The notes below the pieces were generated by a model, which was not told where the DNA came from, did no database searches, and saw only the letters and a program-made list of their open reading frames with translations. This document shows positions 1 through 18,875 of a stretch of DNA of 24,152 nucleotides, piece after piece (positions within the stretch are counted from its first letter, which is position 1; each line of letters opens with the position of its first letter). Source of the stretch: a virus; IMG/VR virus record IMGVR_UViG_3300007538_003141, positions 1-24,152 of that record. One strand, given 5' to 3'. The translations under genes were made by a program, and so were the position numbers.

Positions 1-3000
1 GATGTGCTTAAGTCATAGATAGGCTGTGTTAACCAAGTTCTAGACTGATGTACATCTGCACGATAGATAGATTCTTCACCTGCTGTGTTGACGATATCTA
101 AGTAGATTTCTTCGTCAGGAGTTGAGTGAGGAATCATAGAAGTAATGATCACAACGTCACCTGGTATTACTTCAGTCAAGATGCTAACTTCGTTGTCTTC
201 ACGCATTCTTAACTTGCTGTTAGGTACTCTGTAGCCATTTACTGTTACCCAAAGTCTTTCAACATTTGTTTGCTCCCATTGAGTCACATTCATGATGCCT
301 GAATCGTTAGTTAGCGATACCGCAGTAGTAGCGTCCCGAGTCAAGCCGATAGTGAATTCAGTATTACTGATAACCTGCTTGACATAATAAGTCACGCCCT
401 GTTCGATACCACCTAATAGTGTTGCTCCTGCTTCTTGACCTTGTTGCGTAAAGATCACAGGTGTATTTGCTACTAGATCAGCCGTGCTGTTTACTGTTAT
501 ATAGTTAGTACTTGTTGCAGTAGCAGATGCAGTCGTAGTTGTGATAAAGAACGTGCCTTGTCTCCAAGTATATCCGCCTGACACCCATTCAGTTACACCA
601 ACTACTGGATAGTTAACTGCTGATACAGCAGGGTCCCAAGGTTGTGTATAAATATCGAATCTATATTGGTCAATAACTTTAACATAGTAGTTGTTGCCGT
701 TAAGTTCGCTTGCTCCAACACATCCGTCGATAGCCGCTAACTGATCGTCTGCATATGCATGCGGCACACTAGTTGTGATTCTAGCCGTATCATTGCCGCC
801 TACGATTGTGATTAAGTTACCAGAAGCATTTGTAACAGTAACTTGTGTTCCGGTAGCATCTTTCAGTGTCGCAGTAGTGCTGTCAATAACAGACTCGACA
901 AAGTATACAGTTCCGGGTACTAAGTTACCGAATCCAGTTCCTTTTAAGATTACAGTTTGATCTACGATGAATCCAGTTGTGCTGTTGAAAGTAATTTCGT
1001 TGCCAGTGCTTGATGTAGCAGTTGCTCTAGTCTCTGCTAGTGGATTGTTAATTTCTGTCAAGATATTACTAATCGGTGCAACAGTAATAGCATTTGATGT
1101 ACCTGTCATAGAACCTGTATCATCTGTTACCGTTACTGGAGTACCACCAGGAGTTGTTGAGATTGTAAAGACTGTTGAGTTAATAATCTGAAGTACATAG
1201 TAAGTGAACCCACCAGTCAAACCACCTAATGCAGGTGATGAGAATACGATAGGCTCATCAACTACTAGGGTTGATGTGTCTGTGCATACTAAGTAATCAT
1301 ATAATTCGTCAAGGGCGCTGATTACGGTATCTGCTTCACCATCACCGGATCCTGCATCAACTGCTGTAAATATGTCACCTACATTATATGTGATACCTGA
1401 AGTACCTGCTACCACGTTCCAATCTGTAGTTGTTCCTAGATCGCTGATCTGATATACTACATCTGGTACGAATGATCCTGCTACTACTGTTTCAGAAGTA
1501 TAAGGAGTCTCGGCACTTGTAGCATCGTAATCACCTGCATCATATGGTACTTCAGAGTGTACTGTATCTGTTACTGTGATAGCGGTGAATGCGCCACCTG
1601 AGATACCAGATATACCATATTGCGATGTAAAATATTGTCTTTCTGTGTTGTTATAAGTTAATACAGAAATCTTTGCTCCATTCGCAGGTGGTGAATTGAA
1701 CAAGATCGTATTCGATCCTGAGTTTATTGTATATCTAGAAATTGTTTGACGCAAGCCATCAATCTCTACGATTGCATGTGTTGGGTTGTCATCACCACAG
1801 AAGTTTGGTAGTGTGAATGATGATGTTGACCCGTCACCTGTGAATTCTGCAATCTCAGGTAAAGTATAACCATATTGTGTGCCAGCAGTCTCACCAAATA
1901 ATGAGAATACAAAGTAATCATCTTCATTGTTGTATGAGCCGGGCGCCGCTAACACAAGTTTTGCTTGCTGACCGTTTGGCTGAATACCGATAGCATAGTC
2001 GTTAGTAACATAACTAGAGATACCTGATGCGTCACTTAGTGTTAATGTTGGTCCACCAAGTGTCTCAGAGATAGTAAACTCGTTGCCATCTACAATAGAA
2101 TTGATATAGTAGTATTGGTTAGGAGTAATATCGCTACCAAACATATTTGCGGCAAAGATTATTCTGCTTCCAACAATCAAGCCAGCAGTTGTACCAGTTG
2201 TAATAGCATTGTTACTTGCTTTTGTTCTGCTAATAGTGTTTGTTTTACCTAATACTAACCGTTGACCGTTATGATTTACAACAGGATCTGTCCAAACAGT
2301 GCCAGTACCTGTTTGAATATTACAAATCATTGAACCTGTTGCAGTTGTCAATGCTTTAGTAGGACCTGCTAGACCTGTTAAAGTATTATAAGTCTCAGAT
2401 ACAGTGATAGAGTTTGTTGCTGTAGAGATAGTTTTCACATAATAAGTTGTTTCGTCTGCGATACCACCAAACACAACACCTTGGAATGTGATTGGATCAT
2501 TAGCAACAAAGTTACTTACGTCTACAAATGTGATAGTATCACCGTTAGCATCTGTAGCAATCGCTTCTACTTCGATAGAATGTGAACCTGTTCTGATAAC
2601 ACCTGAACCTTGGAAGATAGATGCACTATAGTTACAGTTCAAGTAGATATCATCAAACCCTGTTTCTTCCATCTCTCTGATTGGGTAAGTATCGCTACAT
2701 GCTTTGACTAATTGATTGCCGTTACCAACTTCGTACACATCGATTCTCAATGCTTGCATTGGTGAGAACTGTAGTGGACTATCCAGCGTGATTATCTTAT
2801 TAGGCCAATCTACTGTGTATTCAGAAGTTGCTAGACCTGTACCCAACTCAGTTGCCGGATCGATAACTTGTAAACTTATTTGCGCAGGATGCTGTAAGAT
2901 TTCTTCGAAACTGTATACAGTCTGGAATTCTTCTTGAGGATACAGTACCACAGACGCTACGTTGTATCCAGTATGTGAATATTGTGTAACGTCCCAGTTA

Positions 3001-6000
3001 GTTCCTGGACGTGTTGTTACAGTCATAGTCAAGTTGTCTTTGATCAAACCAGGAACTAGTTCTTCTGGACCGTAACCGTATGGGAACTCAGCGCCTTGTA
3101 CGTCATAGATTGGCTGTTGTACAGTAAAGAAGGATGAAGATGTCCAAGTAATACCATCATCATCTGATTGAATGATAGTATTGTCGTCCCCAACAACTAC
3201 CCAAAGCGATTCATCTTGATTGAACGTGATACCGCGTAATGTTTTCACAGTCCCTGAGGTCTGTTGCGTCCAATTCACTCTATCAGATGAAGTTTGGATC
3301 TGTCCATCTTCACCCACTGCCATCCAGATGCTGTTAGCATACTTGATATCTAACAATGTATGTTGTAATGTAGGATCTTTATGATACAATCTTGCTTGTA
3401 AAGGAATCGTATCAGCAGTTAGTGTTACCAGTGATGACAATCCTGCATCAGTGTACAGTTTAACCTGTGTTGAACTGATGACATCGACATAATAAGTGTC
3501 ACCTGCTGTCAAACCAGCAAATGAATCTGTTACTGATACGCTAGCACCTGATGCAAAACCTTCAGTTGAGATCACGTTTAAGATATCTAATGGTTCGTTA
3601 ACTGATACACAACCAACTTCACGCAATCCTACCCAGTTACCGCCGTTGTTTGACTGATAGATGATACCATTTTCACCAACTGCTAGCATGTAAGTGCCAT
3701 CAGACTCAATACCATAGAAACCTAGTGGGGTAGCTGATGGGCCGTCTTGCCAGAATTGACCCTCGTCATCAAAAGAGTACGCAACAATGTTAGTATCTAC
3801 TAACTCAGTTACGCCTGATGAGTATTCGTAACGCTTACCTTTACCTACTGCTACGAAACCAGTGTAACCTGAAGTCACGCAATATTTGACACCGTATAGA
3901 GTTACGTCAAATACTGGATCATATGCTTTTCTTTCTGTCCATACATAAGTGTCTGAACTTTGTACGATTCCACGACCTGCGGCTACAAAGAATCCATTGC
4001 CATAATCTACGCTTCTTAGCGAGATGGCTGCGATAGAAAGTGCAGTTGAGTCATATGGATTTGTGTCGTATGGCAGCGCATCATATGGTGTGAACCAACC
4101 GTTAGTAGTCCAAGTAACACCATCGTTGCTTCTAAACAATGGAGTCGCAGTGTTTGTTGATGTCATCACATACAAGCCGTTACCTTCAACGATGTCTGTT
4201 ACGTTGATAGGTGCGTTTGAAACTTTATTGATGCTCCAAGATTGACCTGTGGCACTTCTGATCACACCTGAGTAATTTTCTAAGTTAGCAGGGCTTAAGA
4301 AATACTGATCATTCCAAAGAATAGATGTGATAGAAACACCTGTTGGATAGAATGGCTGATCTTGTAACTCAGTATCTAATGTAAACTGATCTTCTGGTGC
4401 GAACGCATTACCGTAGTAGACTGAGTTTGGATAGATGATACCTTCAAACAATTGTGTCAAGTCGAAACCAGGCATGTTAGCAGTTGGTTGATAGTAACCC
4501 TCTACTCTATCTAATGCGTTTAGTACACGATCACCTGAGTCTAATTCTTCCCATTTACCTAATACGAATTCTGTATCGTTGTTAGAAATGATACAACGAT
4601 AAACTCTATTCAAGTATTTGACGATTGACTGTGTAAAGTAGAAGGGTTCTGGTAAGAACGCAAAGCTACCTGCTTTACTTATAGTCAAGTTAGTTAGTGC
4701 AAGTGTAGTTACTACGTTGACTGCACTGCCGTTAGGCGTATCTGATACTTGAATCTCGTTAGTGATTGTATCGATATCAATGATATAGTAAGTTTCACCG
4801 ATCTCTACATCGATAGAGTTATTAGGTAGTGTTCCCATGAACACGATAGCATCGTTATCGTTGAAGCCTGCAACGCTATCTAATGTGATAGTATCAGTTC
4901 CTGATGTACAATCTGTTACGTTTGCTGTTGTGAAGCCGTTGAATGGGAAGTCGATGCCTGATACTGGCACTGTCATTCTAGGATCACTGTAAACTTCAAC
5001 GGTGTCCGGTGTACGAACTTTGAAGTAGTATTGATATACTGTATCTTCTGGATCACCTTCAATAATTAAACTTGTAATTGCACCGTTGCTGTCGATAGTA
5101 TTGACAACCAATGTAACGTCATTAGCAGGTGATGTGCCACCTACTTCATTTCCTGAAATAGTAATAGTGTTAGTTACTGCATAACCTGATCCAGCATTGC
5201 TAATGACTGCTCTATATCCACCTAAGATAAATCCAATGTCAAACTCTGCTGTTGTCTGAGGAGTTTGAGTCATAGTCATTGCAGTATTTGTATCGGTTAA
5301 CGTTACAGCAGAGCCACCTGGTGTAGTAGAAACTTTGATGAACGGGTTACCTGTACCAGTCATCGGACCGTTGTCGGTTGTTAATGAAACAACACTTCCG
5401 CCTGCTACATCAGTGATAGTAAATTGAGTTGCACTATCTATAGTTTTGATATAGTATTCTGTACCGATTACGATTCCACCTAAACCTACACCTGAGAAGA
5501 TGATAGGCATGTTCACCCAAAGTGATGAAGTATCTAAACAAGTAATTAAATCACCTGTAGAAGATGTGCCAGAGCAATCTACTTCGATAAACGTTGATTG
5601 ATCATCAGGATCAGAGAATTCTATTACGTAATAAACTGTACCAGAAGTGATACCGCCTTGTGTTGTGTTAAAGACTACTGGCATATTTACATAGAAGTTG
5701 TAAGTGCCCTTGTCTTGCATACTCAATGCGATTCTGTTATCAGTACCTTCGATAGCATCGCCTGCAATAGTTGCATAAGCAGTACGAACTAATGCATCAG
5801 TCAACACACCTGAATTGATGTCAGTATAGAATGCAGATGTGTCATACAGTGAGAACAACTGTCCGTTGATCTGTCCTGGTGATACTGGTAATGACACGTT
5901 CATTGCCATAGTGCCGGTAGCATTAGTTAAATCTAATGTATCTTTCTGGTTAGTTAATAGTGCAGAACCAGTTGTTACATCTGTTAGTGTAACTGGTACA

Positions 6001-9000
6001 TTGTTTACTTGAGTAGAAATTTTTAGTTCGGTCAACGAAACGATTTCGTTTACATAATACAACGCACCTGAATCGATTCCACCATAACTATTGATTGGGT
6101 TACTTGATCCATCTACCATAGTGTTAAAGATGATCGGATCATTGACACTAAATCCAGTAGTATCATCTACTGTAACAATATTAGTACCTGAAGTTGTAGC
6201 ACTTACTGTTGCTGTTAATGGATCAGGCTCGGCAGAGATCGTAACATTCTCAGAATCTACTACAGTAGTTACATAATAAACATCATTTTCAATGATACCG
6301 CCAAATACATCACCTGTAAAGAACAGAGGAATACCAATATAGAATCCATCTGTACCACCTGTACCTATTACGGACTGTGGAATAGTTATTGTATTAATAT
6401 CTTTTGTAGTTGTGGTCGCTGTGATAATACCTGGATAGTTTAATGTTAATACCGCAGTATCTACTACTTCACCAACTAAGCATGACATTCCTGCTGATGT
6501 TGCAGTAGCATTTGACAACGCAAACGTGCTACCACCTGCTGTCTCAGAAATAGTAAAGTCAGTTATGTTTACAATACTGTCTACGTAATATACTTGATCT
6601 GCTACTATGCCACCAATCACTGCACCGGTAAATTTGATTGGCATACCTACGTAGAAACCGATAGTAGAACCAGATGAGTTTAATTCTCCAGTGCTTTCAT
6701 CGTAAGGATTCAATCTTACAACATCGTTCGCCGCAACTGTTTCGGAAACTCTACGAACAAACGATGACCAAGTGACTTGATGATCATTTTCTACTTGACT
6801 GATCTCAAATACTACGCCTTGTGCTGAAGCAAGAATACTGTCGATCGGGGGCTGTGTAGATTCTAATCCAATTGAAGATGATGCAACCTTTTCGCTATTG
6901 AAATATGATCCTGCAAAGAATGAACCATAGAACACTCCTGCTTCCCAATCAGTAACTTGTGAATTGAATGTAGTTCTGTCAAATCTAATCGTAGTGTTGT
7001 TTTCACGTACGGGATAAGAGCTAGAAATTGCTGTTGCTCTCGCACCAACATTTAGCACAAAGTTACCATCTGTAGTACCAGCAGTGAATTCGATTCTGTT
7101 TACTTGTCTAACCGCATCTCTATAGCTTGGGTATAGAGCGATGATAGATGTAGGTACTGTCTCTAATACGTTTACGTAATACCAATTACCGTCAACAAGT
7201 CTATTGATTGTTGCTCCCGTTGGATCTGATTGATATCTAACTATATCACCTGTTGATAAGTTAGGAGCAAACAGTTTGATAGTATGCAATGTAGAATTGA
7301 TCTCTGCATTAGTAAAGAAGATTTGTTGTGCAGGATCGATAATGATCTCTGGAAGAACTGCATAACCTTCACCTGGATCGATTACTCTAACTGACACAAC
7401 ACTGTCTACGCTCATTACTGCTTCTAGTTGTGCTTCTACTCTAGGTTCTGGGTAGATAAAAGTATCGATATATGCTGTTACTTTCGGAGGCTCTGTATAA
7501 CCTGTACCACCGTCTAATAGTAATACAGCAGGTAGATCGATATAAACATCGTCACCAGGAATATGTGTTACTGGAGTAGTACCGTTGATACCTCTTTGCA
7601 AACCACCTAATACGTTGAGCGCACGATCAACAAATGCGTAACTGATTTGCTCGTCACCAATGGTGATCGTTCCATTGATTGGGAAACCTTGAGCGTTGTC
7701 TACTATCAAGAACGTAGAACCGATCGTAATGTAGCTGGCTAAAGTTGTTATCTGATAATTATCTTGACCAGTGATAGTTACGCCGTAGTTATTAAACCAA
7801 TTACTATAATCAGGTGTAGACCAAATTGGACTTGTTACTGAGAATTCTGAGGTAGTGTCCACCCCTGTATACACAAGTTCAGGTGTTACATATTGCTGTA
7901 TCGCAGTGTTGTATTGTGCAGGCAAGTCAAAGTCTGTAACGTCACCCGTATAAACGTCACTACCTGTGTACTTGAATAAGAAATCTTTGATTACCACGTG
8001 ATAAGGCTTGACTTCATTCAGATAACCTTCTAAGAAATCTTGATTGTCTGATTGGAAATTCTCGATTGGTAAAAGTTCTCTAATTGTGTGAGCCACGTCA
8101 ATCAATGAAGTCTTGTTCAACCACGGTAAGTAATTTTGTGACTCGTCTGTCTCACTTTCGATATATTGGAACAGGATGATCAGTGACTTGTTTCTATACT
8201 CAACTAATTCATCGATGTAAATCTGCTCGTTCAATGCTCTTATGATCCATCGTGTTTCTTCACTTGGATATTCATCGAAAGGACTTGTGTCAAAGAAGTT
8301 ATCGCCGAAACCAATCTTGCCTTCAGCATAATCCCAAAGATAAGTCTTAAATTTAATAGTACCGTTTTCTAGGCCAACACGTGTCCAAACACCTGCACCA
8401 TCAAAACGATACATCTCCCACTTACCGTCACCGTTTTCAGTTACTTTTACTAGAGTGTTTAAAGCAACATTAAGTTTTGCTAAGTCAGCGTAAACAGGGA
8501 CGTTTAACGATGCTTTAGTGTTATTGTTATACTGATTTTCAGGATTGTTAGTTGGCAACCACCAGTTTACATATTCCCAATAATCAGGAGTATTGTAGAA
8601 CTCCCCGGTTGCAAACAAGTAAGTTGCTTCTCGTCTTGTTTCAGCAATCGGGAACTGGGCTAAAATATCATTAGCGTACTGTAAGAAATTTTTAAGACCA
8701 GTCAATCTATCAAAGAAGAAACTTTGTCTTGGTCTTGCTAACACGCCTGACTGCACTGCTTTTGGTAAGAACGGATTAGGTACTACAGCACCTGCTTCGT
8801 CAACACCTGCAAGACTGTCTAGCATTCTATCATACAAACCTTCTGGTCTGTTGTTTTGTGTTTGGGGACCTAGTTTAGGTAATCCAGGTAAGAAGTCATC
8901 TGGATAATCTGTTCTGATCAGACTAAACTCTTGGTGAGGTACATCATCACTTTGTCCTGTACCAAATCCTACGTGGAACACGCTATCATTTGCGTTGATA

Positions 9001-12000
9001 TAAGAACCTGCGTTATATAGAGCAAAAGTGTTTGGCAGTAGTGGCGCAAAGTATGCGATACCTGATTGTCTTGGATTTCTGATATAGATTTGTAAATTGA
9101 TATCAGAAATAGTTTTACCGATCTTTGTATTGATAGTATCAGTATTACGAACCCAGAATGAGTACAGAGGTACTGAGACGTTAGATGCGTTAAGTGTGCT
9201 TTCTACTGAGAACTGTGTAGTGCTTCTAACTGTTCCAGGGCCTGCGTACTGACCGGGAGGTACATTACTTGTTACCCAAGTATATACCGCTACGTCAGAA
9301 CCTGGAAATACTCTACCCCAGAACTTACTGTTGTACACTACATCATTCTGATGATAGTTTAACCAGCGAACATTAGAAGTATCAAACCATAGTCTACCTT
9401 CGTTTCTGCTACCCCATACCTTACCTGATACTGTTCTGTTTCTGTCTGCATTATAACGTGCAGGATCTATGTTGTCAACATAATCTATATTTTGTCTAAT
9501 GACCCCTAGCATTTTGTTTTGCATAGGATCTAAGTAATCTAAATTGATTAATGTCTGATTAGTTTCTGCGCTGTATATCTGTGAGTTCTGAATCTTTTCG
9601 ATGTCAACAACCGGAGCACTTTCTCTATATACAGCCCAGTCTTTTACACCTGTCTGATTTCTGTATACATTAATCTGACCCGCTACATCAGCAAATGACA
9701 AATCTGGTGTACCGATCACTACTTGATTGTTTCTAAAATCTAGTGCAGTTCCGTACATTGGCTGGAAGCCATAGTTGTTGTCAAGTGAGTTACATGATTG
9801 TGCGTAAATAAACTTACCGGGATCAGCAATACTACCATTGTAGTTTGCTAGATAATCATACATGTATACTGCCCCAGCATTTGGATATTGGTCTACAAAT
9901 CTGGTTGCGTTTTGATCGAATACCGTGTCGTTATCTAAGTTTTCGTCATCCGTAAAATCAAAGGTCGTGCCTGCAAATCTTGTACCTGCAGGAGCTGAGA
10001 TAACAACGCTGTCGAATTCATTAAACTTGATAGTATTACCAAACAGTGTTCTTGTTTGAGCATGAGGAGCAGTCAATACCTGCGTATTAGTATAAACTTC
10101 AATACCAAGGTCAGTAAATGTAGCAGTCTCTGGTGACTGTAATAATAATCTTTCATTGACAAGACTCAAATTCTTATCAATAACAGAGATGATTAGCTTG
10201 TTATCCGTAGCTGTTGCTTGAACATTAGTGATACCTATGCCGTTAATCTGACTTGCTACTGTTGCGGCATTACTACCATTAGCTAATGGAACTAAGAAAC
10301 CGTTTATTAATAGCTTTCTATTAGCAGTCAATAAACATTCATTGGCGCCGATGATTGTGCCATACTTGGCACCGCCATTTGTAAATCTATAGACTGCACC
10401 GTCTTCTTGAAAGTTACCATCAACTACGATCTCGCCGGGTGCTCCAAACAAGATTTCATTAGCAGAAGATATCATGTCATTATCATAACCCAACTGCACC
10501 CCTACTCTATCTGTAGAGTTAGATACAACGGTTTGTAATAACTGGAATTCGTTACTACTGATAGTAACAATATCACCTGCACGTACAGTTGTGTAATATC
10601 TTAACTGTGATCCAACATAAGCGTAATTGTCATCGTCTACTGGAGTACCATTTACTGATACTAGTAGAGGTTCTGACTGAACGTAAGCAGTGATAGTAAT
10701 ACTAGGATCATCTGTTAGTGCCAGCACAGTAGTTGATGAACGTGATAATTTCAATGAGAAAGTGCTACCAACGATATCTTCGATATAGTATACTTGGTAC
10801 GGAGAGATACCGCTGTCACCAAAATCACTTCCATCAAATACTACAGGATCGTTAACATTCATACCTGTAGTAGATGCTACCGTGATGTAGTTTGAAGACA
10901 CCGCAGTTGCATTACTTGTAGTAGCAGTTGGAGTAAATGCTAACTCAAGCGGCTGATACAAATCTGGAATGCTTGTGTACTGAACTTCTACGTTTTGTAC
11001 TAAACGAGAGTAAATCCATCCTTTACCGTAATTTGTTAATCCACCGGGGCCTGTAAAATTAGGCGCACCAATAGCGATAGTATCACCATTGTAATCCGTT
11101 GATACTGAGAAACCAAAGTTGTCTGCTAATATAGCTCCGTCTGCTGAACCGTCGATCACATAAGGTGTAGTGTTGTATGTTATTTGATCTGCGCTACCTG
11201 TACCTGTACCTGGTCCTGTAGCAACAAAGATGATACCAACTTTATTGTCTACTGCACCGATCAATTTAAAATCTGTTGTTCCAACTTCGGTGATCTGATA
11301 AGTTTGACCTGTTACAAAGTAGCCGGCGTTGAGAGGAATTCTTTCTCTACGATATGCAAGAACTCTTACGTTTGCAGGGTCACTAGCATAGATCCAATTT
11401 TGATCTTTAGAAATCGCAATGTCTGTTCCTACGCCTGATGCAACACTGATAGCAGGTTGATAGTCAATGATATCATCTGTTAAGATAGTATCATTTAATG
11501 TATAAATGTGTAGCTTAGGTGTGCCTGTTGGCTCAGAGATAACAAACAAGTTTCCTGAGTATGCGATCTTGCTACCAAAAGAAGGACCTGAAGTTAATAA
11601 ACTTCCTGTATCTTCTTCATAGTTTTGTGTAACTGGGTTGAACCCGTAACGATATACTTTACCAGCATCAGCGTCACCAATCAGATAACCCATACGATCT
11701 GTGTATGCAACTGCGCTACCAAATGATTGTCCGTCTACTCTATCAAGTTCTTTTAGTTGCTGATAGTTAATAGATTTTCTATAAACAGTCCAACCGCCGT
11801 TAGAGCCTTCATCAACCCAAACAGTGTTTTTTACAAATTCTGCTTCGTTAAGGTCGAGAGTTTCGATCTCAGAGGGTTTAGCAACACGCTGATCGATAAA
11901 CGTCAACCCTAGACCACTGCCATCAAGAGAGAATGTTCTTTCTGTTGTTATATTAATACTAACTTCAGTGATGCTATTGACTCTAGTGACAACGTAATAT

Positions 12001-15000
12001 CCATTGATCTCGTTGTCAACTTGAATCAATGAGATTGGATCTAACTTTTTAAGACCGTGTGGCTTATCGAATGTGATAACTGTTTCGGAACCAGACGGTG
12101 TAGCCCCTATGACTCTGGCTACAGGTTTCCAAGTATACACTCTCCAGCGTTCTTTAAAGTTTGCTAACCAGACATAATCTCTTACATAAAATGCTGAGAT
12201 AGGAATGCGTATTGCATTATTGTTGATCGCATTCGCTAGACCTGAATAGAAATAAGATGCCATCTTGACATCATCATAATTAACGTAACCTGCTGTTGGG
12301 TACAACTTAGTAGTAGGTTCGCTGTCGGTAGTCATCAGTACATTAGGATCACTGATGGGTCTAGCATAGTTGAATAAACCGTATGTTGGAACTTCTTGCT
12401 GTGCGCCCGGAGTTGGAGTGCCGTTAGTTAAACTAACAATAGCTGGGTTGCCTGTCAACAGTGCTTCATTGATTCTAAAATCAACAAAGTTGCCATTTAA
12501 TGTACCACCAAACTGACCAGACAAGATAGCCCAGTTTTCGTATACGTCATAATCGATGCCGCCTTGCGGTAAGTTAGCACCTTTGAACGCAGATACAGCA
12601 TTCGGTGTACCTTTGTTTTTAATCATGTTTTTGTAAACGTTTACTTGAGTAATGTCAGTTAAGTCTACTAGTGCTAAGTAATCTCTTGGTCTATAACCAA
12701 TCAATGAGAATGATAACTGATCAGCATCTTTTTCTAAGTTTGCTACATTGTCATTGTAATATAGAGTCTGTTCATAGCATCGTGTTGATGAGTTGGGTAG
12801 CAAGCCTTTTTGAATTTCATCGTAATCAGTTACAACCCAATCAAGTTCTCTGAACGTAGCACTTGGTTCGATAACTTTTATAGCAGTCCAGTACTTGTTC
12901 TTGTAAGTAACAATCATACCTTTTGTATATTTTGTACCAACGTTCCACTCTTGAATATTATCTTGATTTAAGATAAATCCTGAAGCAAATACAGTACCGT
13001 TCCACTCTGCTGTTTTTGTACCACGTAAGAAAATTCTGTTTTGACGCAATCCTGTGATCAAGTTATAAATGATATCATTGAACAACGTAGTATTATCAAA
13101 TACTACACCATGCTCAAAGTTACTCAAATTGAATTGAGTATAAGCCATAGTATCGCCGCTGTTTAGAGTTTTAACATTAAATTCTGTATCTAAACGAGAG
13201 ATTGCTAAATCCCCTAAAGCGATAGGATATAAGTTTTGGTTCAAAATAAAATTGTTTTGCTGAATTGTTAACGGCTGGACGATCTCGCTTTCTTTGAACA
13301 CTTTCAAATTCTGTGCCGCTGGGTTTAGAGTCAAGATAGCACCATTTTCCCATCCTGTTTGTGCCCAGAATAAGAATTCTTTTACCATTACTTCCCAGTT
13401 GATTTCCATACCGTATTCGATATTATCGAACACCATACCTTTACGTTCTAACCAATGTCCGTAGCCCATCAAGAATGTTGCTACTTCTAATGTAGAATAG
13501 AACTGCGTACCATATGGTATTAGGCGTTCTTCTGTTTCGGTACTTGTATAGTTCAAAGGTAGCTTGACAGAAGCATCGTCAACTGTTATAGTAGTGTTGA
13601 CACCGTTATTGATTGGTGTATCTACTGTAAAATATGCTTGGCTTTGTGAGTTACCATATACTCTCCAACCATCTGCTGTAAGCTGGAGTACCACAGCCGA
13701 GAACTTGATAGTATCCATCGGCTGGTTATCATGTAATAATAATGCGTAGCTTTCGTCTGGAATTAGTAATGATGCATTGTTTGAGTTAGGTGTTCCTTTC
13801 TCAACAAAGAATTTCAAGAATGTTTTATCACTATAACCTGCTAGACGATAAATCAAACGCACATCCAGATTGTCTAGAAGTCCAGTGATTGAAGTAGTTG
13901 CATCTACCCCTTGTTGTTTTTCGAAATCAACGATCCAGTTCAGGTAACTTGTTTTTGCAGTTCCGTTACCATATACTTCGATATCATTAATAATCAAATG
14001 TGATCTATTGTTAACTAGGTATTGATTGAATTCTGTATTATATTTGTAATTGTCTAAGTCTACCGATAAGTTAAAGAATTCTGCTGGTCTAGTAAGAGCA
14101 AAAATCTTCATAAGGTCGAACGGATATGAAGAACTTCTACGGTAAGCTAGTTCAGCAGGAGCGATGTCTCCAACTTTCCATTCACGTTTAAATGTGTTAG
14201 AAGTATATTGACCTACGATTGCCTGTAGGGGCGATTTTAGATTGCCCTGTGCATCTACTGGTAAGATTTTGCTTAAGCCAGGTCTCTTTAACAGATCAAC
14301 TGTGATGGGGTCTCCGTTATTCCAAATAATACCTGCCTCAATATCTCCCCACAAGATATCGTTAGTGCTAGTGTAAGGTGCGGGACCATAACGATCTTGC
14401 CACCAACTTGGTTCTTCTGCAAAACCTAGCATTTCCCAAGGTGCAATGTTTGGTTGTAAAGAACCATAGAAGAATTCAGATATGCCTCTCCAGTAACCTT
14501 GATAGATAGGCGTGTTCGTTAATTTATTTCCTGATCCTGTATAGTTATAAACAAACTCATTAGTTGAAGTATAACCTTGCTGAGTCTTGTAGTTAATTCT
14601 ATTTTGACCTGCCCAGTTCAAGAAGTATGGTGAATAGATTCTTAGGTAATCTTCATTTGAATATGTACCTTCTCTAAAGAAGCCGGGTAATACTTCATAA
14701 GCATTGATAGGAACTTCAGTAGAAAGTTTTAAGTTGTTATAGATTCTTGTTTCAAATTCAAGTAATGCTTGATCTCTGAAATCAATCAAACCATACTCTG
14801 GCGAATAGTCACCGTACAGTGAAGTATAAGACCCGTCGTGTCCTCTCAACATATAAGTTGGAGTAGAATAGTTTGGATCTAGAACTACTTCAGGAACAAA
14901 ACTTGGATACATGCCTAACTTAGTTGGAGTGTTAGGAACATACGATCCGTATGTTTGATTATATTCTTTAATTGTGATTATGTCATTTGGTTGTAGACCG

Positions 15001-18000
15001 ACTGTTACACTTAGTGAGGGTGAGGTTGTTGATACAACATAATCTCTATCTTTTACTAATTGAGTTGTAACTTGAACTCCGGCGACAACACGGGTAAGAT
15101 AAACTAATACACCTGTATAATTTGCAGTATCAAAATTGTATATTTGTGTTAACGGATATACAGATTCTTGGAGCGCATTAGCAAACGTATATGAATTTGA
15201 TCTATATGGCGCCTGTGAAGGTAACATATCGCTCCAGAAGAATGATTCTCCTTCTGTTTTATTAGCACTAATCTGTTCTAATGCTGTATCTAGGATATAA
15301 GAAGCACTAAAACGTTGTTCCCAATCAATGTTATTAACAGTGTTAACTAGTATTTGTTTGAATTGAACATATTGATGACTGTTATATTGTAAAGCATCAA
15401 AAATGTTATGCTCGGACTTACGTAAAAATACGCCGGGCAGTACTAGTGACGCAGAGTTTTGAATAATCTTTGTACCGTAAGGAACAAGATTACCTAAATC
15501 TCTAAAGTTGTTTGAGCCAAAAATAGTACCCGTGATATCAGGAGTATTAACAAAAATGTTTTGATACTGTGATCTGATATCACCGATATTAACTTGTGTC
15601 AAGTCTTCATTAAATGGGTTGTTATTTAAGTTGATAGGAATATCATAATAAGCAGTCTTGCTTACTTGGTTACTTAATAACAAGATTTGAATGGGTTGAT
15701 CACCTACAGGCGATGCTTCATCACTTAATGTTACAACTGTTGAATTAGCAGTTGAAGTTACTGTATACTGTGAAGGTAATACGAATTGATTGTTAACGTA
15801 TACTTGAATTCTTGGCCATGATGCGCTTTCTGATTCAGGAATAACCGCAACATCACACGTAAATTGAGGTACGGTCGCTTCTTGATATTCTAGTTCAAAC
15901 ACTTGGTATTGTACTGAAGGGGCAACTGCTGTTTGCCACCCCAATTCACGTGTGAATTCTGTTCGGTCACTATAATTATAAACATAACCAGTATTGACAT
16001 TTTGTGTGATAGGATCGGTGCCGGTTACGTATGAGAACGTGTCTTTGTTTAGTGATACGTCAAAACTTAAGTCACCGACGTTATCGATATTTGAATAACG
16101 TACAGGGAAACCTAAGATAGGATCGTTTGTGCCTGATCCAATTCCGTAAGCAAACAATTTGTTACCGGTAAATGACGTACCGGAATAGTATTCTGCATCG
16201 CCGAATGAGATTCCGTTCTCATCGAACACATCAAATAATGGAGCTTGGTTTACTGTAAGTTTTTGCTGACCCTCGTTCCACTCAGTTCCATCAAACCAGA
16301 AAGTTGAACCCTGATAATTATAACCACGCAGTGCAACAGTTTGATCGTTCTCTTCCACTAATGCATCTTCTGCCGGAGTCAACGTAATGATTGGAGTAGA
16401 ACCAAACGTGAATGATGAGAAACCTACTACCCAGATTTTATTTCTTACGTCTGGATTTGTATCTTGTGTGAATACGATTCTAGCACCTTGGAATAGCGCA
16501 TAATTGTTTACAGTAGTATCGCTACCTACAATTGAAGAATTAGTAGTTGCAGAGAAAGTAGCAGGATCTTGCCAGCTTACAGTTAAAATAGTATTTGTGC
16601 CTGAAACATCAATGCTGTCGATCTGTGTGTTTCTAGGTAATACGTTAGTAGAGTCTGTGATATACATTCCTACTTGGAATGTTGTAAAGATTCCGCTAGT
16701 AGGAATAGTAATAGTTGTAGTAGTCGCACTTGACGCACTAGCAATAACACCGGTATAAGTTGTATAAGTTTCGATATCAGGATAGTACTGCTGTTGATTT
16801 GCAACACGTGTGAATGCATTTGTAGTGCGTGTGTCGATAAAATCTACAGGTGCTTTGGCTGCTGATCCTGAATCAAATAGTTTTAAGTTAGGATAAAACT
16901 CAATGATAGGACGCTTTGCTTTGTTTCTGCCAGTAGCGTAAGTTGTAGTGATCGTAGGATCTTCGTTATACTGTGCAGTTGCATTGATAACATCAATGTG
17001 GAACCATCTGTTTGAACGAGACCATGCGTTATTATTGATAGAGTTTCTAGCAATAGTGATATAATCTGGTTCTACAGGAATAAACAACTCTTGATCAAAA
17101 CGTCCAATATCGTAAGGTAATGAATCGTAGGGAATGTATGTAGAACCAGTGAAGTCTTCTGGACACACTAAGTCCCTAGCTGGAATTAGTTCGATACTAG
17201 TACCAACACCTTCTACGTAATATTCACCTTCTAAGTAACTTGATGGGACAACATCACCGTCAAATTGAACTTTTAATCCGTTAGTAAATTCTACACCGTT
17301 AGTAGAGGTAAAGTTTTGTTTACCTAAAATATCTTCTTCGACATTAAGCGTATTTGTTAGGTTGCTTTCGATTAATCTTATGACACCAACTTTGTTTGGA
17401 TTAGTACCGTCTTGATAATATAAAGTGTCAAGTAGTGAAGACAGATAAGGAATCTCTAGAATCTGACCTAAAGTATTTCTGTAAAACTCTAAACCAACAA
17501 ACTGTGAACCGTAAACTACCGTGATTTTTTCTTCTGTTGGAATATTTCCTGCGGGTAATAAACGGATAGTAGGGTCTGCTGAATCACCAACATAACTGAT
17601 AGAATAAAAGTTTTCGTTTACTACAGTATAGAAACCCTCTTCAAATAAACCTTCGTTGACGTTTGCTACCATAGTACCGGTGTCAGCAGTTAACACCTTA
17701 GTAGAACCAGCAACAGTATCACTAATAGTAAATGTTGTTGGAGAGATAATATCTTTTACATAATAGATAGTATCAACGTCTAGACCACCTAACAGTGGTA
17801 AACCGTCGGGTTGAGTAAATGTTACTGTTTGATTTTCTACTAAGGCACTAGTATCTCCTGAAGCTAATACTAAAGTAGATGTTGTAGTCTGATTAATGGA
17901 CAAAGTAACTGGTGCGACAATAACCGGAGTTTCTAAGTTTTCATCGTAATCTGCTTCATCATAATATGCAGAAACGAACCCGATCTCGTTAGCATCTGCG

Positions 18001-18875
18001 GTGTTGTAGAACATCACTGTTAAACCTTCAAGTGATGTGACACCGTCGATATTTCCTAACTCTGATAATGTTTTACCGTTGATCTCAGAAAATAGTTTAG
18101 TGCTGATTAAATCAACTGTATTGTTTCCTGGAAAAATAAAATCATCTTGTGCGTTTCTGTTAGGAACTGTGAACGTGACAAATCCCTGGTTAGCACCGTT
18201 ATTAGAAACACCTAAGATATCTCTTGTGTTTTTATTACCATCTAATCCTGTGACCCCAGGAACACCTTGAATCCAAAATTGTGTTTCTTGGTTTACTGCA
18301 AATCGATATGTGCCGCCTCGTAACAATGTAATTGTAGGATTGAGAGAACCTGATGCCGCACCTAATGCTCTAATGTTATAAGCATTTGCTGTATCTGTTA
18401 CAACATAATCTGTTTCATTAAAGACTGTAGCAGATGCTACGGTAACAGCAGGAGGCCCGTCAGGCAACCAGTAGTACTGATTGTAGTTAATTAACTTGTC
18501 TAAGTTACTGAACGAATCCCATGAATAAAACTGACTAGTAAACAACTTAGAGTTGTCTGTAGTCACTCCACCTTTTAGTTTGAGAGCATCAATAATACCT
18601 GGGTATGTGATGAAATCTTGCGCTGTGTTTTGATTTTCTTTTAAGAAAACAACACCCGGTGCTAATTGATAATCAGTTCTTGTCTTAGTTGGTTCGGTTA
18701 CGTAGTAATCTTTAGCATTGATTCCATAACCAAGTTTACTACCTACATAACCTTGTAGAGTTTGATTTTTAGGAGGATTGACCAGCTGGTCAAGAGTCGC
18801 TCCTAAAAACTGAGCGTTAGTAGAAGTTTTGAATATGTCTGGTAAAAAATCTAATGTTCTAATTCTGTGGCTCAT
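1..18875 (-). CDS. Giant modular virion/baseplate protein, at least 6291 residues (3' end beyond window)
   Basis: One frame stays open from ATG at 18875 to the left edge, 6291 codons. The phase is the same at both ends and at every point I translated between them, and I met no stop. Order by approximate residue: conserved-looking N-terminus with LPDIFKTSTNAQFLGATLDQ (11-30); a long non-repetitive body with TIKEYNQTYGSYVPNTPTKL and PWEMLGFAEEPSWW (1290-1500); FG-GAP-like repeats (2370-3075); a section with VAHTIRELLP and EVKPYHVVIKDFLF (3540-3640); RG and Gly-Tyr modules (3690-3840); arrays of a Tyr-Tyr-Val module (3900-4750 and 5430-6200); Asp-box repeats (4870-5250); a VNG module at the visible end. 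No signal peptide or membrane segment was seen. It directly follows gp6 with a good ribosome binding site. From memory, segments such as the N-terminal motif resemble very large virion structural proteins of marine T4-like phages, so the family may be known though poorly characterised. Position suggests a baseplate wedge or appendage role (T4 has gene 7 here); this is inference. Confidence 0.9.
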   Translation of the reverse strand, partial: MSHRIRTLDFLPDIFKTSTNAQFLGATLDQLVNPPKNQTLQGYVGSKLGYGINAKDYYVTEPTKTRTDYQLAPGVVFLKENQNTAQDFITYPGIIDALKLKGGVTTDNSKLFTSQFYSWDSFSNLDKLINYNQYYWLPDGPPAVTVASATVFNETDYVVTDTANAYNIRALGAASGSLNPTITLLRGGTYRFAVNQETQFWIQGVPGVTGLDGNKNTRDILGVSNNGANQGFVTFTVPNRNAQDDFIFPGNNTVDLISTKLFSEINGKTLSELGNIDGVTSLEGLTVMFYNTADANEIGFVSAYYDEADYDENLETPVIVAPVTLSINQTTTSTLVLASGDTSALVENQTVTFTQPDGLPLLGGLDVDTIYYVKDIISPTTFTISDTVAGSTKVLTADTGTMVANVNEGLFEEGFYTVVNENFYSISYVGDSADPTIRLLPAGNIPTEEKITVVYGSQFVGLEFYRNTLGQILEIPYLSSLLDTLYYQDGTNPNKVGVIRLIESNLTNTLNVEEDILGKQNFTSTNGVEFTNGLKVQFDGDVVPSSYLEGEYYVEGVGTSIELIPARDLVCPEDFTGSTYIPYDSLPYDIGRFDQELFIPVEPDYITIARNSINNNAWSRSNRWFHIDVINATAQYNEDPTITTTYATGRNKAKRPIIEFYPNLKLFDSGSAAKAPVDFIDTRTTNAFTRVANQQQYYPDIETYTTYTGVIASASSATTTTITIPTSGIFTTFQVGMYITDSTNVLPRNTQIDSIDVSGTNTILTVSWQDPATFSATTNSSIVGSDTTVNNYALFQGARIVFTQDTNPDVRNKIWVVGFSSFTFGSTPIITLTPAEDALVEENDQTVALRGYNYQGSTFWFDGTEWNEGQQKLTVNQAPLFDVFDENGISFGDAEYYSGTSFTGNKLFAYGIGSGTNDPILGFPVRYSNIDNVGDLSFDVSLNKDTFSYVTGTDPITQNVNTGYVYNYSDRTEFTRELGWQTAVAPSVQYQVFELEYQEATVPQFTCDVAVIPESESASWPRIQVYVNNQFVLPSQYTVTSTANSTVVTLSDEASPVGDQPIQILLLSNQVSKTAYYDIPINLNNNPFNEDLTQVNIGDIRSQYQNIFVNTPDITGTIFGSNNFRDLGNLVPYGTKIIQNSASLVLPGVFLRKSEHNIFDALQYNSHQYVQFKQILVNTVNNIDWEQRFSASYILDTALEQISANKTEGESFFWSDMLPSQAPYRSNSYTFANALQESVYPLTQIYNFDTANYTGVLVYLTRVVAGVQVTTQLVKDRDYVVSTTSPSLSVTVGLQPNDIITIKEYNQTYGSYVPNTPTKLGMYPSFVPEVVLDPNYSTPTYMLRGHDGSYTSLYGDYSPEYGLIDFRDQALLEFETRIYNNLKLSTEVPINAYEVLPGFFREGTYSNEDYLRIYSPYFLNWAGQNRINYKTQQGYTSTNEFVYNYTGSGNKLTNTPIYQGYWRGISEFFYGSLQPNIAPWEMLGFAEEPSWWQDRYGPAPYTSTNDILWGDIEAGIIWNNGDPITVDLLKRPGLSKILPVDAQGNLKSPLQAIVGQYTSNTFKREWKVGDIAPAELAYRRSSSYPFDLMKIFALTRPAEFFNLSVDLDNYKYNTEFNQYLVNNRSHLIINDIEVYGNGTAKTSYLNWIVDFEKQQGVDATTSITGLLDNLDVRLIYRLAGYSDKTFLKFFVEKGTPNSNNASLLIPDESYALLLHDNQPMDTIKFSAVVLQLTADGWRVYGNSQSQAYFTVDTPINNGVNTTITVDDASVKLPLNYTSTETEERLIPYGTQFYSTLEVATFLMGYGHWLERKGMVFDNIEYGMEINWEVMVKEFLFWAQTGWENGAILTLNPAAQNLKVFKESEIVQPLTIQQNNFILNQNLYPIALGDLAISRLDTEFNVKTLNSGDTMAYTQFNLSNFEHGVVFDNTTLFNDIIYNLITGLRQNRIFLRGTKTAEWNGTVFASGFILNQDNIQEWNVGTKYTKGMIVTYKNKYWTAIKVIEPSATFRELDWVVTDYDEIQKGLLPNSSTRCYEQTLYYNDNVANLEKDADQLSFSLIGYRPRDYLALVDLTDITQVNVYKNMIKNKGTPNAVSAFKGANLPQGGIDYDVYENWAILSGQFGGTLNGNFVDFRINEALLTGNPAIVSLTNGTPTPGAQQEVPTYGLFNYARPISDPNVLMTTDSEPTTKLYPTAGYVNYDDVKMASYFYSGLANAINNNAIRIPISAFYVRDYVWLANFKERWRVYTWKPVARVIGATPSGSETVITFDKPHGLKKLDPISLIQVDNEINGYYVVTRVNSITEVSINITTERTFSLDGSGLGLTFIDQRVAKPSEIETLDLNEAEFVKNTVWVDEGSNGGWTVYRKSINYQQLKELDRVDGQSFGSAVAYTDRMGYLIGDADAGKVYRYGFNPVTQNYEEDTGSLLTSGPSFGSKIAYSGNLFVISEPTGTPKLHIYTLNDTILTDDIIDYQPAISVASGVGTDIAISKDQNWIYASDPANVRVLAYRRERIPLNAGYFVTGQTYQITEVGTTDFKLIGAVDNKVGIIFVATGPGTGTGSADQITYNTTPYVIDGSADGAILADNFGFSVSTDYNGDTIAIGAPNFTGPGGLTNYGKGWIYSRLVQNVEVQYTSIPDLYQPLELAFTPTATTSNATAVSSNYITVASTTGMNVNDPVVFDGSDFGDSGISPYQVYYIEDIVGSTFSLKLSRSSTTVLALTDDPSITITAYVQSEPLLVSVNGTPVDDDNYAYVGSQLRYYTTVRAGDIVTISSNEFQLLQTVVSNSTDRVGVQLGYDNDMISSANEILFGAPGEIVVDGNFQEDGAVYRFTNGGAKYGTIIGANECLLTANRKLLINGFLVPLANGSNAATVASQINGIGITNVQATATDNKLIISVIDKNLSLVNERLLLQSPETATFTDLGIEVYTNTQVLTAPHAQTRTLFGNTIKFNEFDSVVISAPAGTRFAGTTFDFTDDENLDNDTVFDQNATRFVDQYPNAGAVYMYDYLANYNGSIADPGKFIYAQSCNSLDNNYGFQPMYGTALDFRNNQVVIGTPDLSFADVAGQINVYRNQTGVKDWAVYRESAPVVDIEKIQNSQIYSAETNQTLINLDYLDPMQNKMLGVIRQNIDYVDNIDPARYNADRNRTVSGKVWGSRNEGRLWFDTSNVRWLNYHQNDVVYNSKFWGRVFPGSDVAVYTWVTSNVPPGQYAGPGTVRSTTQFSVESTLNASNVSVPLYSFWVRNTDTINTKIGKTISDINLQIYIRNPRQSGIAYFAPLLPNTFALYNAGSYINANDSVFHVGFGTGQSDDVPHQEFSLIRTDYPDDFLPGLPKLGPQTQNNRPEGLYDRMLDSLAGVDEAGAVVPNPFLPKAVQSGVLARPRQSFFFDRLTGLKNFLQYANDILAQFPIAETRREATYLFATGEFYNTPDYWEYVNWWLPTNNPENQYNNNTKASLNVPVYADLAKLNVALNTLVKVTENGDGKWEMYRFDGAGVWTRVGLENGTIKFKTYLWDYAEGKIGFGDNFFDTSPFDEYPSEETRWIIRALNEQIYIDELVEYRNKSLIILFQYIESETDESQNYLPWLNKTSLIDVAHTIRELLPIENFQSDNQDFLEGYLNEVKPYHVVIKDFLFKYTGSDVYTGDVTDFDLPAQYNTAIQQYVTPELVYTGVDTTSEFSVTSPIWSTPDYSNWFNNYGVTITGQDNYQITTLASYITIGSTFLIVDNAQGFPINGTITIGDEQISYAFVDRALNVLGGLQRGINGTTPVTHIPGDDVYIDLPAVLLLDGGTGYTEPPKVTAYIDTFIYPEPRVEAQLEAVMSVDSVVSVRVIDPGEGYAVLPEIIIDPAQQIFFTNAEINSTLHTIKLFAPNLSTGDIVRYQSDPTGATINRLVDGNWYYVNVLETVPTSIIALYPSYRDAVRQVNRIEFTAGTTDGNFVLNVGARATAISSSYPVRENNTTIRFDRTTFNSQVTDWEAGVFYGSFFAGSYFNSEKVASSSIGLESTQPPIDSILASAQGVVFEISQVENDHQVTWSSFVRRVSETVAANDVVRLNPYDESTGELNSSGSTIGFYVGMPIKFTGAVIGGIVADQVYYVDSIVNITDFTISETAGGSTFALSNATATSAGMSCLVGEVVDTAVLTLNYPGIITATTTTKDINTITIPQSVIGTGGTDGFYIGIPLFFTGDVFGGIIENDVYYVTTVVDSENVTISAEPDPLTATVSATTSGTNIVTVDDTTGFSVNDPIIFNTMVDGSSNPINSYGGIDSGALYYVNEIVSLTELKISTQVNNVPVTLTDVTTGSALLTNQKDTLDLTNATGTMAMNVSLPVSPGQINGQLFSLYDTSAFYTDINSGVLTDALVRTAYATIAGDAIEGTDNRIALSMQDKGTYNFYVNMPVVFNTTQGGITSGTVYYVIEFSDPDDQSTFIEVDCSGTSSTGDLITCLDTSSLWVNMPIIFSGVGLGGIVIGTEYYIKTIDSATQFTITDVAGGSVVSLTTDNGPMTGTGNPFIKVSTTPGGSAVTLTDTNTAMTMTQTPQTTAEFDIGFILGGYRAVISNAGSGYAVTNTITISGNEVGGTSPANDVTLVVNTIDSNGAITSLIIEGDPEDTVYQYYFKVRTPDTVEVYSDPRMTVPVSGIDFPFNGFTTANVTDCTSGTDTITLDSVAGFNDNDAIVFMGTLPNNSIDVEIGETYYIIDIDTITNEIQVSDTPNGSAVNVVTTLALTNLTISKAGSFAFLPEPFYFTQSIVKYLNRVYRCIISNNDTEFVLGKWEELDSGDRVLNALDRVEGYYQPTANMPGFDLTQLFEGIIYPNSVYYGNAFAPEDQFTLDTELQDQPFYPTGVSITSILWNDQYFLSPANLENYSGVIRSATGQSWSINKVSNAPINVTDIVEGNGLYVMTSTNTATPLFRSNDGVTWTTNGWFTPYDALPYDTNPYDSTALSIAAISLRSVDYGNGFFVAAGRGIVQSSDTYVWTERKAYDPVFDVTLYGVKYCVTSGYTGFVAVGKGKRYEYSSGVTELVDTNIVAYSFDDEGQFWQDGPSATPLGFYGIESDGTYMLAVGENGIIYQSNNGGNWVGLREVGCVSVNEPLDILNVISTEGFASGASVSVTDSFAGLTAGDTYYVDVISSTQVKLYTDAGLSSLVTLTADTIPLQARLYHKDPTLQHTLLDIKYANSIWMAVGEDGQIQTSSDRVNWTQQTSGTVKTLRGITFNQDESLWVVVGDDNTIIQSDDDGITWTSSSFFTVQQPIYDVQGAEFPYGYGPEELVPGLIKDNLTMTVTTRPGTNWDVTQYSHTGYNVASVVLYPQEEFQTVYSFEEILQHPAQISLQVIDPATELGTGLATSEYTVDWPNKIITLDSPLQFSPMQALRIDVYEVGNGNQLVKACSDTYPIREMEETGFDDIYLNCNYSASIFQGSGVIRTGSHSIEVEAIATDANGDTITFVDVSNFVANDPITFQGVVFGGIADETTYYVKTISTATNSITVSETYNTLTGLAGPTKALTTATGSMICNIQTGTGTVWTDPVVNHNGQRLVLGKTNTISRTKASNNAITTGTTAGLIVGSRIIFAANMFGSDITPNQYYYINSIVDGNEFTISETLGGPTLTLSDASGISSYVTNDYAIGIQPNGQQAKLVLAAPGSYNNEDDYFVFSLFGETAGTQYGYTLPEIAEFTGDGSTSSFTLPNFCGDDNPTHAIVEIDGLRQTISRYTINSGSNTILFNSPPANGAKISVLTYNNTERQYFTSQYGISGISGGAFTAITVTDTVHSEVPYDAGDYDATSAETPYTSETVVAGSFVPDVVYQISDLGTTTDWNVVAGTSGITYNVGDIFTAVDAGSGDGEADTVISALDELYDYLVCTDTSTLVVDEPIVFSSPALGGLTGGFTYYVLQIINSTVFTISTTPGGTPVTVTDDTGSMTGTSNAITVAPISNILTEINNPLAETRATATSSTGNEITFNSTTGFIVDQTVILKGTGFGNLVPGTVYFVESVIDSTTATLKDATGTQVTVTNASGNLITIVGGNDTARITTSVPHAYADDQLAAIDGCVGASELNGNNYYVKVIDQYRFDIYTQPWDPAVSAVNYPVVGVTEWVSGGYTWRQGTFFITTTTASATATSTNYITVNSTADLVANTPVIFTQQGQEAGATLLGGIEQGVTYYVKQVISNTEFTIGLTRDATTAVSLTNDSGIMNVTQWEQTNVERLWVTVNGYRVPNSKLRMREDNEVSILTEVIPGDVVIITSMIPHSTPDEEIYLDIVNTAGEESIYRADVHQSRTWLTQPIYDLST
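3..285 (-). other. VNG-type module at the left window edge (giant protein continues)
   Basis: The last visible residues contain RLWVTVNGYRVPNSKLRM, a V-I-P-G-D-V-V-I-I-T strand, then ADVHQSRTWLTQPIYDLST. A related module lies near 10600-10680 (LLVSVNGTPVDDDNYAYVGS with RAGDIVTIS), and a looser one near 15740-15840 (RIQVYVNNQFVLPSQYTVTS). The frame is open through base 3, so the protein extends beyond the window. Confidence 0.55.
300..2600 (-). repeat. Array 1 of Tyr-Tyr-Val modules in the giant protein
   Basis: Six copies have their Tyr-Tyr-Val type codons at 2436-2444, 2103-2111, 1194-1202, 897-908 (VYFV), 681-689 and 381-389. The clearest are GGIADETTYYVKTISTATNS, ALGGLTGGFTYYVLQII and LLGGIEQGVTYYVKQVISNT. 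A full unit runs from a T-S-x-x-N-x-I-T strand through PVIF, the YYV core and the SGIM-like end, about 240 bases. The array lies in the visible C-terminal fifth, as expected for a distal stalk or fibre-like part. Confidence 0.75.
1335..1490 (-). repeat. GTTD-type module, copy near the visible C-terminal end
   Basis: The protein reads VVYQISDLGTTTDWNVVAGT followed by a V-G-D-I-F-T-A strand and GSGDG. It matches a second copy at 11185-11335 (TYQITEVGTTDFKLIGA, then GIIFVATGPGTGTGSA). This is a separate small module family from the Tyr-Tyr-Val type. Confidence 0.6.
3130..4262 (-). other. Asp-box (BNR-like) repeat region, candidate seven-bladed beta-propeller
   Basis: Seven Asp-box-like elements end in Trp: RSATGQSW (4236-4259), RSNDGVTW (4110-4133), QSSDTYVW (3939-3962), SFDDEGQFW (3750-3776), QSNNGGNW (3633-3656), TSSDRVNW (3270-3293) and QSDDDGITW (3144-3170). 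Several are preceded by a strand such as YMLAVGENGIIY, WMAVGEDGQI or LWVVVGDDNTII. This matches sialidase, YCF48 or BNR-type propeller blades. A Tyr-Tyr-Val module (codons 3486-3494) is inserted between elements five and six. No sialidase active-site residues were identified, so a binding or scaffold role is more likely than an enzyme. T4 gp7 also carries a propeller-like region, which is of interest given the gene position. Confidence 0.65.
4640..7200 (-). repeat. Array 2 of Tyr-Tyr-Val modules in the giant protein
   Basis: Copies of a roughly 80-residue module are recognised by a GG-I/L-x-x-G-x-x-YYV core followed by an FTIS-like strand and a T-x-x-x-G-x-M end. Tyr-Tyr-Val/Ile codons lie at 7173-7181, 6582-6590, 6270-6278, 6051-6059, 5625-5633, 5448-5456 and 4782-4790; a degenerate YYF is at 5022-5030. 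Clear examples are GGIVADQVYYVDSIVNITDF and GGIVIGTEYYIKTIDSATQF. Copies have diverged at both DNA and protein level, so they are old rather than recent duplications. Similar modules are common in marine phage fibres. Confidence 0.75.
7350..7800 (-). repeat. RG-type and paired Gly-Tyr modules of the giant protein
   Basis: At about 7560-7800 the protein has a module with FPINGTITIGDEQISYAFVD, GGLQRGINGT and HIPGDDV, a type found in many phage fibre proteins. It is followed at 7350-7540 by two linked units, LDGGTGYTEPPKVTAYI and VIDPGEGYAVLPEIII, each with a G-x-GY-x-x-x-P core. These are adhesion or fibre-style beta modules, identified by pattern only. Confidence 0.6.
7960..8265 (-). other. 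Helical, non-repetitive section of the giant protein
   Basis: Residues about 3538-3638 read as helix-prone sequence: TRWIIRALNEQIYIDELVEY, SLIILFQYIESETDE, YLPWLNKTSLIDVAHTIREL, DFLEGYLNEVKPYHVVIKDF, then a TGDVTDFDLP turn. This differs from the beta-rich modules on both sides and may be a folded hub between the propeller and the distal modules. Function unknown. Confidence 0.45.
9650..11760 (-). other. FG-GAP-like repeat region, candidate seven-bladed beta-propeller
   Basis: Seven similar elements occur in order: SFGSAVAYTDRMGYLIGDAD (near 11700), SFGSKIAYSGNLFVISEPTG (near 11560), VGTDIAISKDQNWIYASDPA (near 11400), NFGFSVSTDYNGDTIAIGAP (near 11080), LGYDNDMISSANEILFGAPG with GAVYRF (near 10440), FDSVVISAPAGTRFAGTTFD with GAVYMY (near 9950) and YGTALDFRNNQVVIGTPDLS with INVYRN (near 9720). 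The pattern of FG-x-S, a hydrophobic strand, G-A-P and a final V-Y strand is that of FG-GAP blades of integrin-alpha type propellers. Between elements lie inserted modules: one at 11185-11335 and a VNG and Tyr-Tyr-Ile pair at about 10600-10950. Blade count is by eye; calcium sites were not verified. Confidence 0.6.
11185..11335 (-). repeat. GTTD-type module inserted in the FG-GAP region
   Basis: The sequence TYQITEVGTTDFKLIGA, followed by VGIIFVATGPGTGTGSA, lies between the third and fourth FG-GAP-like elements. Its partner is at 1335-1490. The Gly-Thr-rich end is a good marker for the family. Confidence 0.6.
14377..14995 (-). other. Non-repetitive conserved-type core of the giant protein
   Basis: Residues about 1294-1500 hold distinctive, aromatic-rich segments: TIKEYNQTYGSYVPNTPTKL, MLRGHDGSYTSLYGDYSPEY, LIDFRDQALLEFETRIYNNL, YLRIYSPYFLNWAGQNRINY, PWEMLGFAEEPSWWQDRYGP and ILWGDIEAGIIW. 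I recall similar segments in marine T4-like virion proteins. The lack of repeats and high Trp/Tyr content suggest a folded core rather than a fibre module. No catalytic motif is visible. Confidence 0.5.
17690..17860 (-). repeat. First, isolated Tyr-Tyr-Val module of the giant protein
   Basis: Residues about 340-395 contain GGLDVDTIYYVKDIISPTTF followed by TISDTVAGSTKVLTADTGTM. This is a near-ideal copy of the module that forms the arrays at the other end of the protein (Tyr-Tyr-Val codons at 17757-17765). A weaker Tyr-Tyr-Val site lies at 17214-17222 (EYYVEGVGTSIEL). The isolated copy suggests the module was inserted here separately. Confidence 0.7.
18420..18875 (-). other. N-terminal conserved-type segment of the giant protein
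   Basis: Residues 1-152 form a compact non-repetitive section: SHRIRTLDFLPDIFKT, FLGATLDQLV, GYVGSKLGYGINAKDYYV, RTDYQLAPGVVFL, DFITYPGIIDALKLKGG, then NYNQYYWLPDGPP. Its Tyr, Asp and Pro-rich style matches the start of large virion proteins of marine T4-like phages as I remember them. It is the best candidate for the part that anchors the protein in the virion, since later segments are modular. No enzyme motif was seen. Confidence 0.55.

Follow-up and report, generated by a model that had tools for sequence, protein, structure and literature searches.

Is a reading frame that fills most of a viral contig a real gene and, if so, what kind of protein does it encode and where in the particle would this protein sit? 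The window (the whole stretch of DNA that we analyzed) is the entire 24,152-base IMG/VR record IMGVR_UViG_3300007538_003141, and its left edge is therefore the contig end. On its minus strand, one frame runs from the ATG at 18875 to base 3 over 6291 codons, with no internal stop, and is still open at the window edge. As about 0.067 stops per codon are expected at 39% GC (our own estimate), a frame of 6291 codons is no chance event. The ATG follows the stop of a gp6-like gene at once and has an AAAGG ribosome-binding site 7 nt ahead of it. An earlier note on this DNA had reported one phage gene that follows gp6 directly, open from this ATG to the left edge and with a good ribosome binding site, and each of these points held when the frame was re-read.

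A complete gene under purifying selection

The same gene is present in IMGVR_UViG_3300025646_003104 (loci L088 and L145). Over 18,873 nt, the two copies differ by 44 SNPs and by no indel; 25 of the changed codons are synonymous and 14 nonsynonymous. The extension to the left that the earlier note had proposed as a check could be run on this near-identical contig. Its stop lies 181 codons beyond the window edge, and the complete protein has 6472 aa, 709.7 kDa and a pI of 4.2. Counting this contig, complete and unbroken frames of 5279-6629 aa were detectable in 31 IMG/VR contigs, which encode 27 distinct proteins. The giant gene is real, and selection acts over its full length: dN/dS is 0.07-0.22 in each 500-codon block with a defined value, as measured pairwise against relatives of 64-68% identity, where dS is near saturation.

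Two contigs carry broken giant genes, one with a frameshift (L140:11742-11755) and one with an in-frame stop (L110, near 7235), both otherwise intact; either break may be a sequencing error or a natural variant. These breaks are what speaks for an assembly artefact or a pseudogene. Given the 31 complete frames, the near-identical contig without indels and the low dN/dS, such an origin is hardly conceivable. Misassembled repeat arrays, which the earlier note had named as a possible refutation, are not a concern here, since Tandem Repeats Finder detected no DNA tandem array in the giant gene. Together, the intact contigs, the lack of a tandem array and the low dN/dS rule out an assembly or repeat artefact.

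The earlier note had also stated that few phage genes are this long. The size stands, but it has precedents: huge phages with proteins of up to 7694 aa, some of them tentatively called structural, were reported in 2020 (PMC7162821), a likeness of size. The outline and keywords of a 2025 moraphage paper mention no such gene (PMC12619734).

Family membership and domain organization

The profile phrog_10938 ('virion structural protein', 3324 positions, 121Q gp582; PHROGs category 'head and packaging') matches successive pieces of the conserved half of the giant, with E-values of 1e-77, 5e-128 and 1e-43. The conserved regions match the profile in order, and the core that they form makes up approximately half of the protein. 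A tblastn search recovered the family from 84 records of isolate phages, with homologues of 3323 aa in 121Q, 3340 in CBB, 3807 in SCTP-2 (gp140), 3857 in PA5oct, 4449 in Atu_ph07 and 4555 in Phosso. In the family alignment, the common core comprises aa 1-170, 520-700, 800-2200 and 3100-3700. Judged by these similarities, the giant belongs, as an enlarged version, to a known family of jumbo-phage virion proteins and is no stand-alone oddity. The kind of gene is already known, as are phage proteins of comparable size. New are the link of the giant to phrog_10938, its full length, the domain map (Table 1) and a graded series of sizes, suggestive of growth through gained modules.

Table 1. Features of the window, with coordinates on the 24,152-base record
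Feature	Position	Strand	Basis or remark
Giant gene, continues past left edge	1..18875	-	6291 codons in window; 6472 in complete homologous contig
Lineage-specific C-terminal region (window part), aa 3701-6291	3..7775	-	beta-module array
YYV module 14	303..488	-	iterated HMM
YYV module 13	825..983	-	iterated HMM
YYV module 12	1119..1280	-	iterated HMM
YYV module 11	2028..2189	-	iterated HMM
YYV module 10	2343..2522	-	iterated HMM
Ycf48/BNR-type beta-propeller, aa 4790-5290	3006..4508	-	contains inserted YYV module
YYV module 9, inside Ycf48-type propeller region	3414..3569	-	iterated HMM
YYV module 8	4707..4877	-	iterated HMM
YYV module 7	5373..5534	-	iterated HMM
YYV module 6 (partial)	5607..5705	-	iterated HMM
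YYV module 5	5979..6164	-	iterated HMM
YYV module 4	6201..6353	-	iterated HMM
YYV module 3	6507..6668	-	iterated HMM
Conserved core 2, aa 3100-3700	7776..9578	-	predicted helices near aa 3539-3579
FG-GAP-type beta-propeller, aa 2360-3080	9636..11798	-	family alignment, FG-GAP matches
YYV module 2, aa 2668-2723, inside FG-GAP propeller region	10707..10874	-	iterated HMM
Conserved core 1, aa 800-2200	12276..16478	-	phrog_10938
CBM_5_12 (chitin-binding type), aa 1976-1998	12882..12950	-	weak match, below Pfam cut-off
YYV module 1, aa 341-397	17685..17855	-	iterated HMM
Conserved N-terminus, aa 1-170	18366..18875	-	common to 121Q/PA5oct/Atu_ph07 homologues
AAAGG ribosome-binding site	18883..18887	-	7 nt before ATG
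gp6-like baseplate wedge protein, 1120 aa	18886..22248	-	phrog_10646; weaker phrog_219 = T4 gp6
gp25-like baseplate wedge / sheath initiator, 152 aa	22302..22760	-	Pfam and profile matches

The earlier note had described a chain built of fibre and propeller modules and had denied any polyketide or peptide synthetase. Both statements agree with the map, which holds two types of propeller and fibre-like beta-modules, and a Pfam scan of the entire in-window chain in overlapping pieces returned no KS, AT, A or C domains. The FG-GAP propeller region aligns only in Atu_ph07 and Phosso and is mostly missing in 121Q, PA5oct and SCTP-2. FG-GAP_2 was matched in 15 of 18 members. The second propeller region is matched by Ycf48 structures (E = 7e-4). 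Only the giants have the stretch of aa 3700-6400; among isolates, a Caulobacter phage tail fibre alone matches it, over a short length.

The isolate homologues differ in how much of this architecture they share. 121Q gp582, phAPEC6 gp245 and CBB_236 have the homologous core in the same order and the position after gp6, at about half the length of the giant; 121Q lacks the YYV modules and the array of aa 3700-6400. Atu_ph07 gp180 and the Phosso virion structural protein have the core, the FG-GAP-aligned region and a related RG-motif module at their C-terminus, but neither YYV modules nor the Ycf48-type propeller, and are 1900 aa shorter. PA5oct gp355 has the closest core among isolates (approximately 29% over 69% of the first 2200 aa) and a similar C-terminal motif, but is 2600 aa shorter and devoid of YYV modules. 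The C-terminal tail of the giant scored 12.3 bits against the short relatives (best shuffled 7.6), which is weak by score. This homology is probably real, since in Atu_ph07, Phosso and PA5oct the matches fall at the C-terminus; none was seen in 121Q. A viral fold search returned uncultured phage proteins and Atu_ph07, most likely of the same family; the viral structure library already contains uncultured-phage relatives, split into several segments.

Module copy number and growth of the gene

Compared to the short relatives, the giants have two additional beta-propellers and approximately 2700 aa of beta-modules. The YYV module, 54 aa with a beta-like pattern and the consensus ...NDPIVFTGTVFGGIVAGTTYYVKSIVSSTTFTISETPGGSVVTLT..., is detected by the iterated HMM in 14 copies scattered along the chain and also inside both propeller regions. 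Among the giants, the number of copies correlates with protein length (r = 0.95, with ancestry shared by both). On a tree built from the core only, the copies number 0 in the isolates, 1 in the 5.3k clade, then 7-9, 11-12 and 14-15, the node that sets apart the one-copy clade having a support of only 0.58. This order suggests a stepwise gain of the module. The extra length would have come from repeated gain of the 54-aa beta-module and from the two propellers, starting from an ancestor of roughly 3300-4600 aa. Intermediates of 3.3k, 3.8k, 4.5k, 5.3k, 6.2k and 6.6k aa allow this putative growth to be followed. Microbacterium phages have a weakly related module, in one record annotated as minor tail protein.

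Place in the virion

The proposal of the earlier note that the giant is a particle component is very probably right, because mass spectrometry has detected short homologues in virions: phAPEC6 gp245 (381.9 kDa) with 17 peptides (PMC7247149) and CBB_236 with 21 peptides (PMC5259590), while PA5oct gp355 is flagged ESI-MS/MS in its record. All virion peptides stem from these short homologues and none from the 6.5k form. For the unusual place that the note had expected of a component of this size, the baseplate wedge or its periphery is the simplest candidate.

Gene order points to the baseplate. The homologue lies directly after the gp6-like gene in 121Q, phAPEC6, CBB, PA5oct, Atu_ph07 and Phosso. 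In a 333-kb relative, a virion structural protein, a small baseplate wedge subunit and a second virion structural protein are followed by hub/lysozyme, gp25, gp6, the giant and fibre-like genes. Adjacency to gp6 is not obligatory, since the homologue of Salicola phage SCTP-2 is approximately 92 kb away from it, and the 'head and packaging' category that PHROGs assigns to the family also speaks against a baseplate location. In that phage a second very large gene, gp141 (L183:4609-13899, 3096 aa), lies directly before the homologue.

In T4, the gene directly after gp6 in the wedge operon is gp7 (1032 aa, six times smaller than the giant), which is present in six copies (PMC3004832). The two families did not co-occur in the records tested. 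All seven jumbo records (four giant-bearing, 121Q, PA5oct and Atu_ph07) have gp6 and phrog_10938, and the T4 gp7 profile (phrog_964) matches none of them. T4 shows the reverse, with gp6 and gp7 and without phrog_10938, and the gp6 control profile matches all eight records. Neither was gp8 credibly found in the records tested, where the one match spans 28 residues of Atu_ph07 (E = 0.008). The T4 gp7 orthologue of XM1, gp17, is only 242 aa long and serves to anchor the tail spikes (PMC10457771), which indicates that the gp7 position tolerates large changes in size and carries adhesins.

The simplest reading, and a fairly likely one, is that the phrog_10938 family does the job of gp7. We infer this wedge role, since the giant has no similarity to T4 gp7 by BLAST or profile and the structure predictions are too weak to decide. 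Hhalign returned nothing for six gp7 proteins against eleven giant segments (a thin gp7 profile of six sequences), nor for the gp6 N-terminus (core-bundle region) against the giant, and three core alignments, used as profiles to search solved structures, were equally negative. AlphaFold models of aa 3080-3740 and 1300-2360 have low confidence (pLDDT 65 and 59), and a PDB fold search with these two core models matched no solved baseplate protein. The E1-enzyme and endosialidase folds that appeared were short, local matches with TM of approximately 0.07, and we discarded them as not credible.

As a working model that we consider probable, the giant is a very large phrog_10938 member of the baseplate region, forming a six-copy wedge arm at the gp7 position. 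There would be one chain per wedge and six per particle. The four core segments would bind the gp6/gp25 wedge at the position of T4 gp7, and an arm made of the propellers, the patch that resembles a carbohydrate-binding module and the C-terminal array of beta-modules would extend outward. This arm may touch the host surface, hold the short fibres encoded just downstream, or both. The giant shows that a conserved baseplate-region protein of jumbo phages can double in size with its core kept. More tentatively, a single chain of approximately 710 kDa may merge a gp7-type scaffold with the adhesin layer, having grown by stepwise 54-aa insertions, even within propellers.

The lack of core similarity to gp7 would also fit a fibre or adhesin at the baseplate periphery that adjoins gp6 and does not replace gp7, with a highly diverged gp7 encoded elsewhere. 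Orthologues as small as that of XM1 are easily missed, and in SCTP-2 the homologue and gp6 are not linked. We regard this alternative as unlikely, because adhesins typically evolve fast, whereas the core shows conservation and strong purifying selection over its whole length. Less probable still is a whisker or fibre of the tail surface or neck, in which the chain would form or anchor the hair-like appendages of Rak2-like jumbo phages instead of a baseplate wedge. CBB bears whiskers of approximately 119 nm and phAPEC6 similar filaments, with proteins not assigned (PMC5259590, PMC7247149), and a modular protein with repeated, beta-rich-looking modules would suit them. Against this, the gene is located within the baseplate cluster; moreover, the CBB authors expect that GAP32, if whiskerless, should lack whisker genes (PMC5259590), but the annotation of CBB_236 notes similarity to GAP32_230. 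The wedge arm remains our preferred reading. The giant also poses a question that can be tested: which protein takes on the job of gp7 in jumbo phages that have gp6 and no recognizable gp7?

Several neighbouring genes deserve mention. The gene upstream of gp25 (22773-24152, minus strand) is represented in the window by a C-terminal part with long poly-proline runs, and only a short stretch of it resembles the hub gene of a relative. After these runs, a stretch from CVVLDSYIP to ILHHN appears, by eye only, Hint-like (intein/Hedgehog-type self-processing). Downstream of the giant, a 407-aa fibre-like protein (L145:13918-15138) has a near-cut-off match to Peptidase_G2, an autoproteolytic chaperone. 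The fibre-like genes are followed by a conserved cluster of radical SAM/SPASM proteins and other, unassigned genes (L145:16452-22554 and L187:3498-17998), and in Atu_ph07 and Phosso, too, a radical SAM gene lies a few genes downstream of the homologue.
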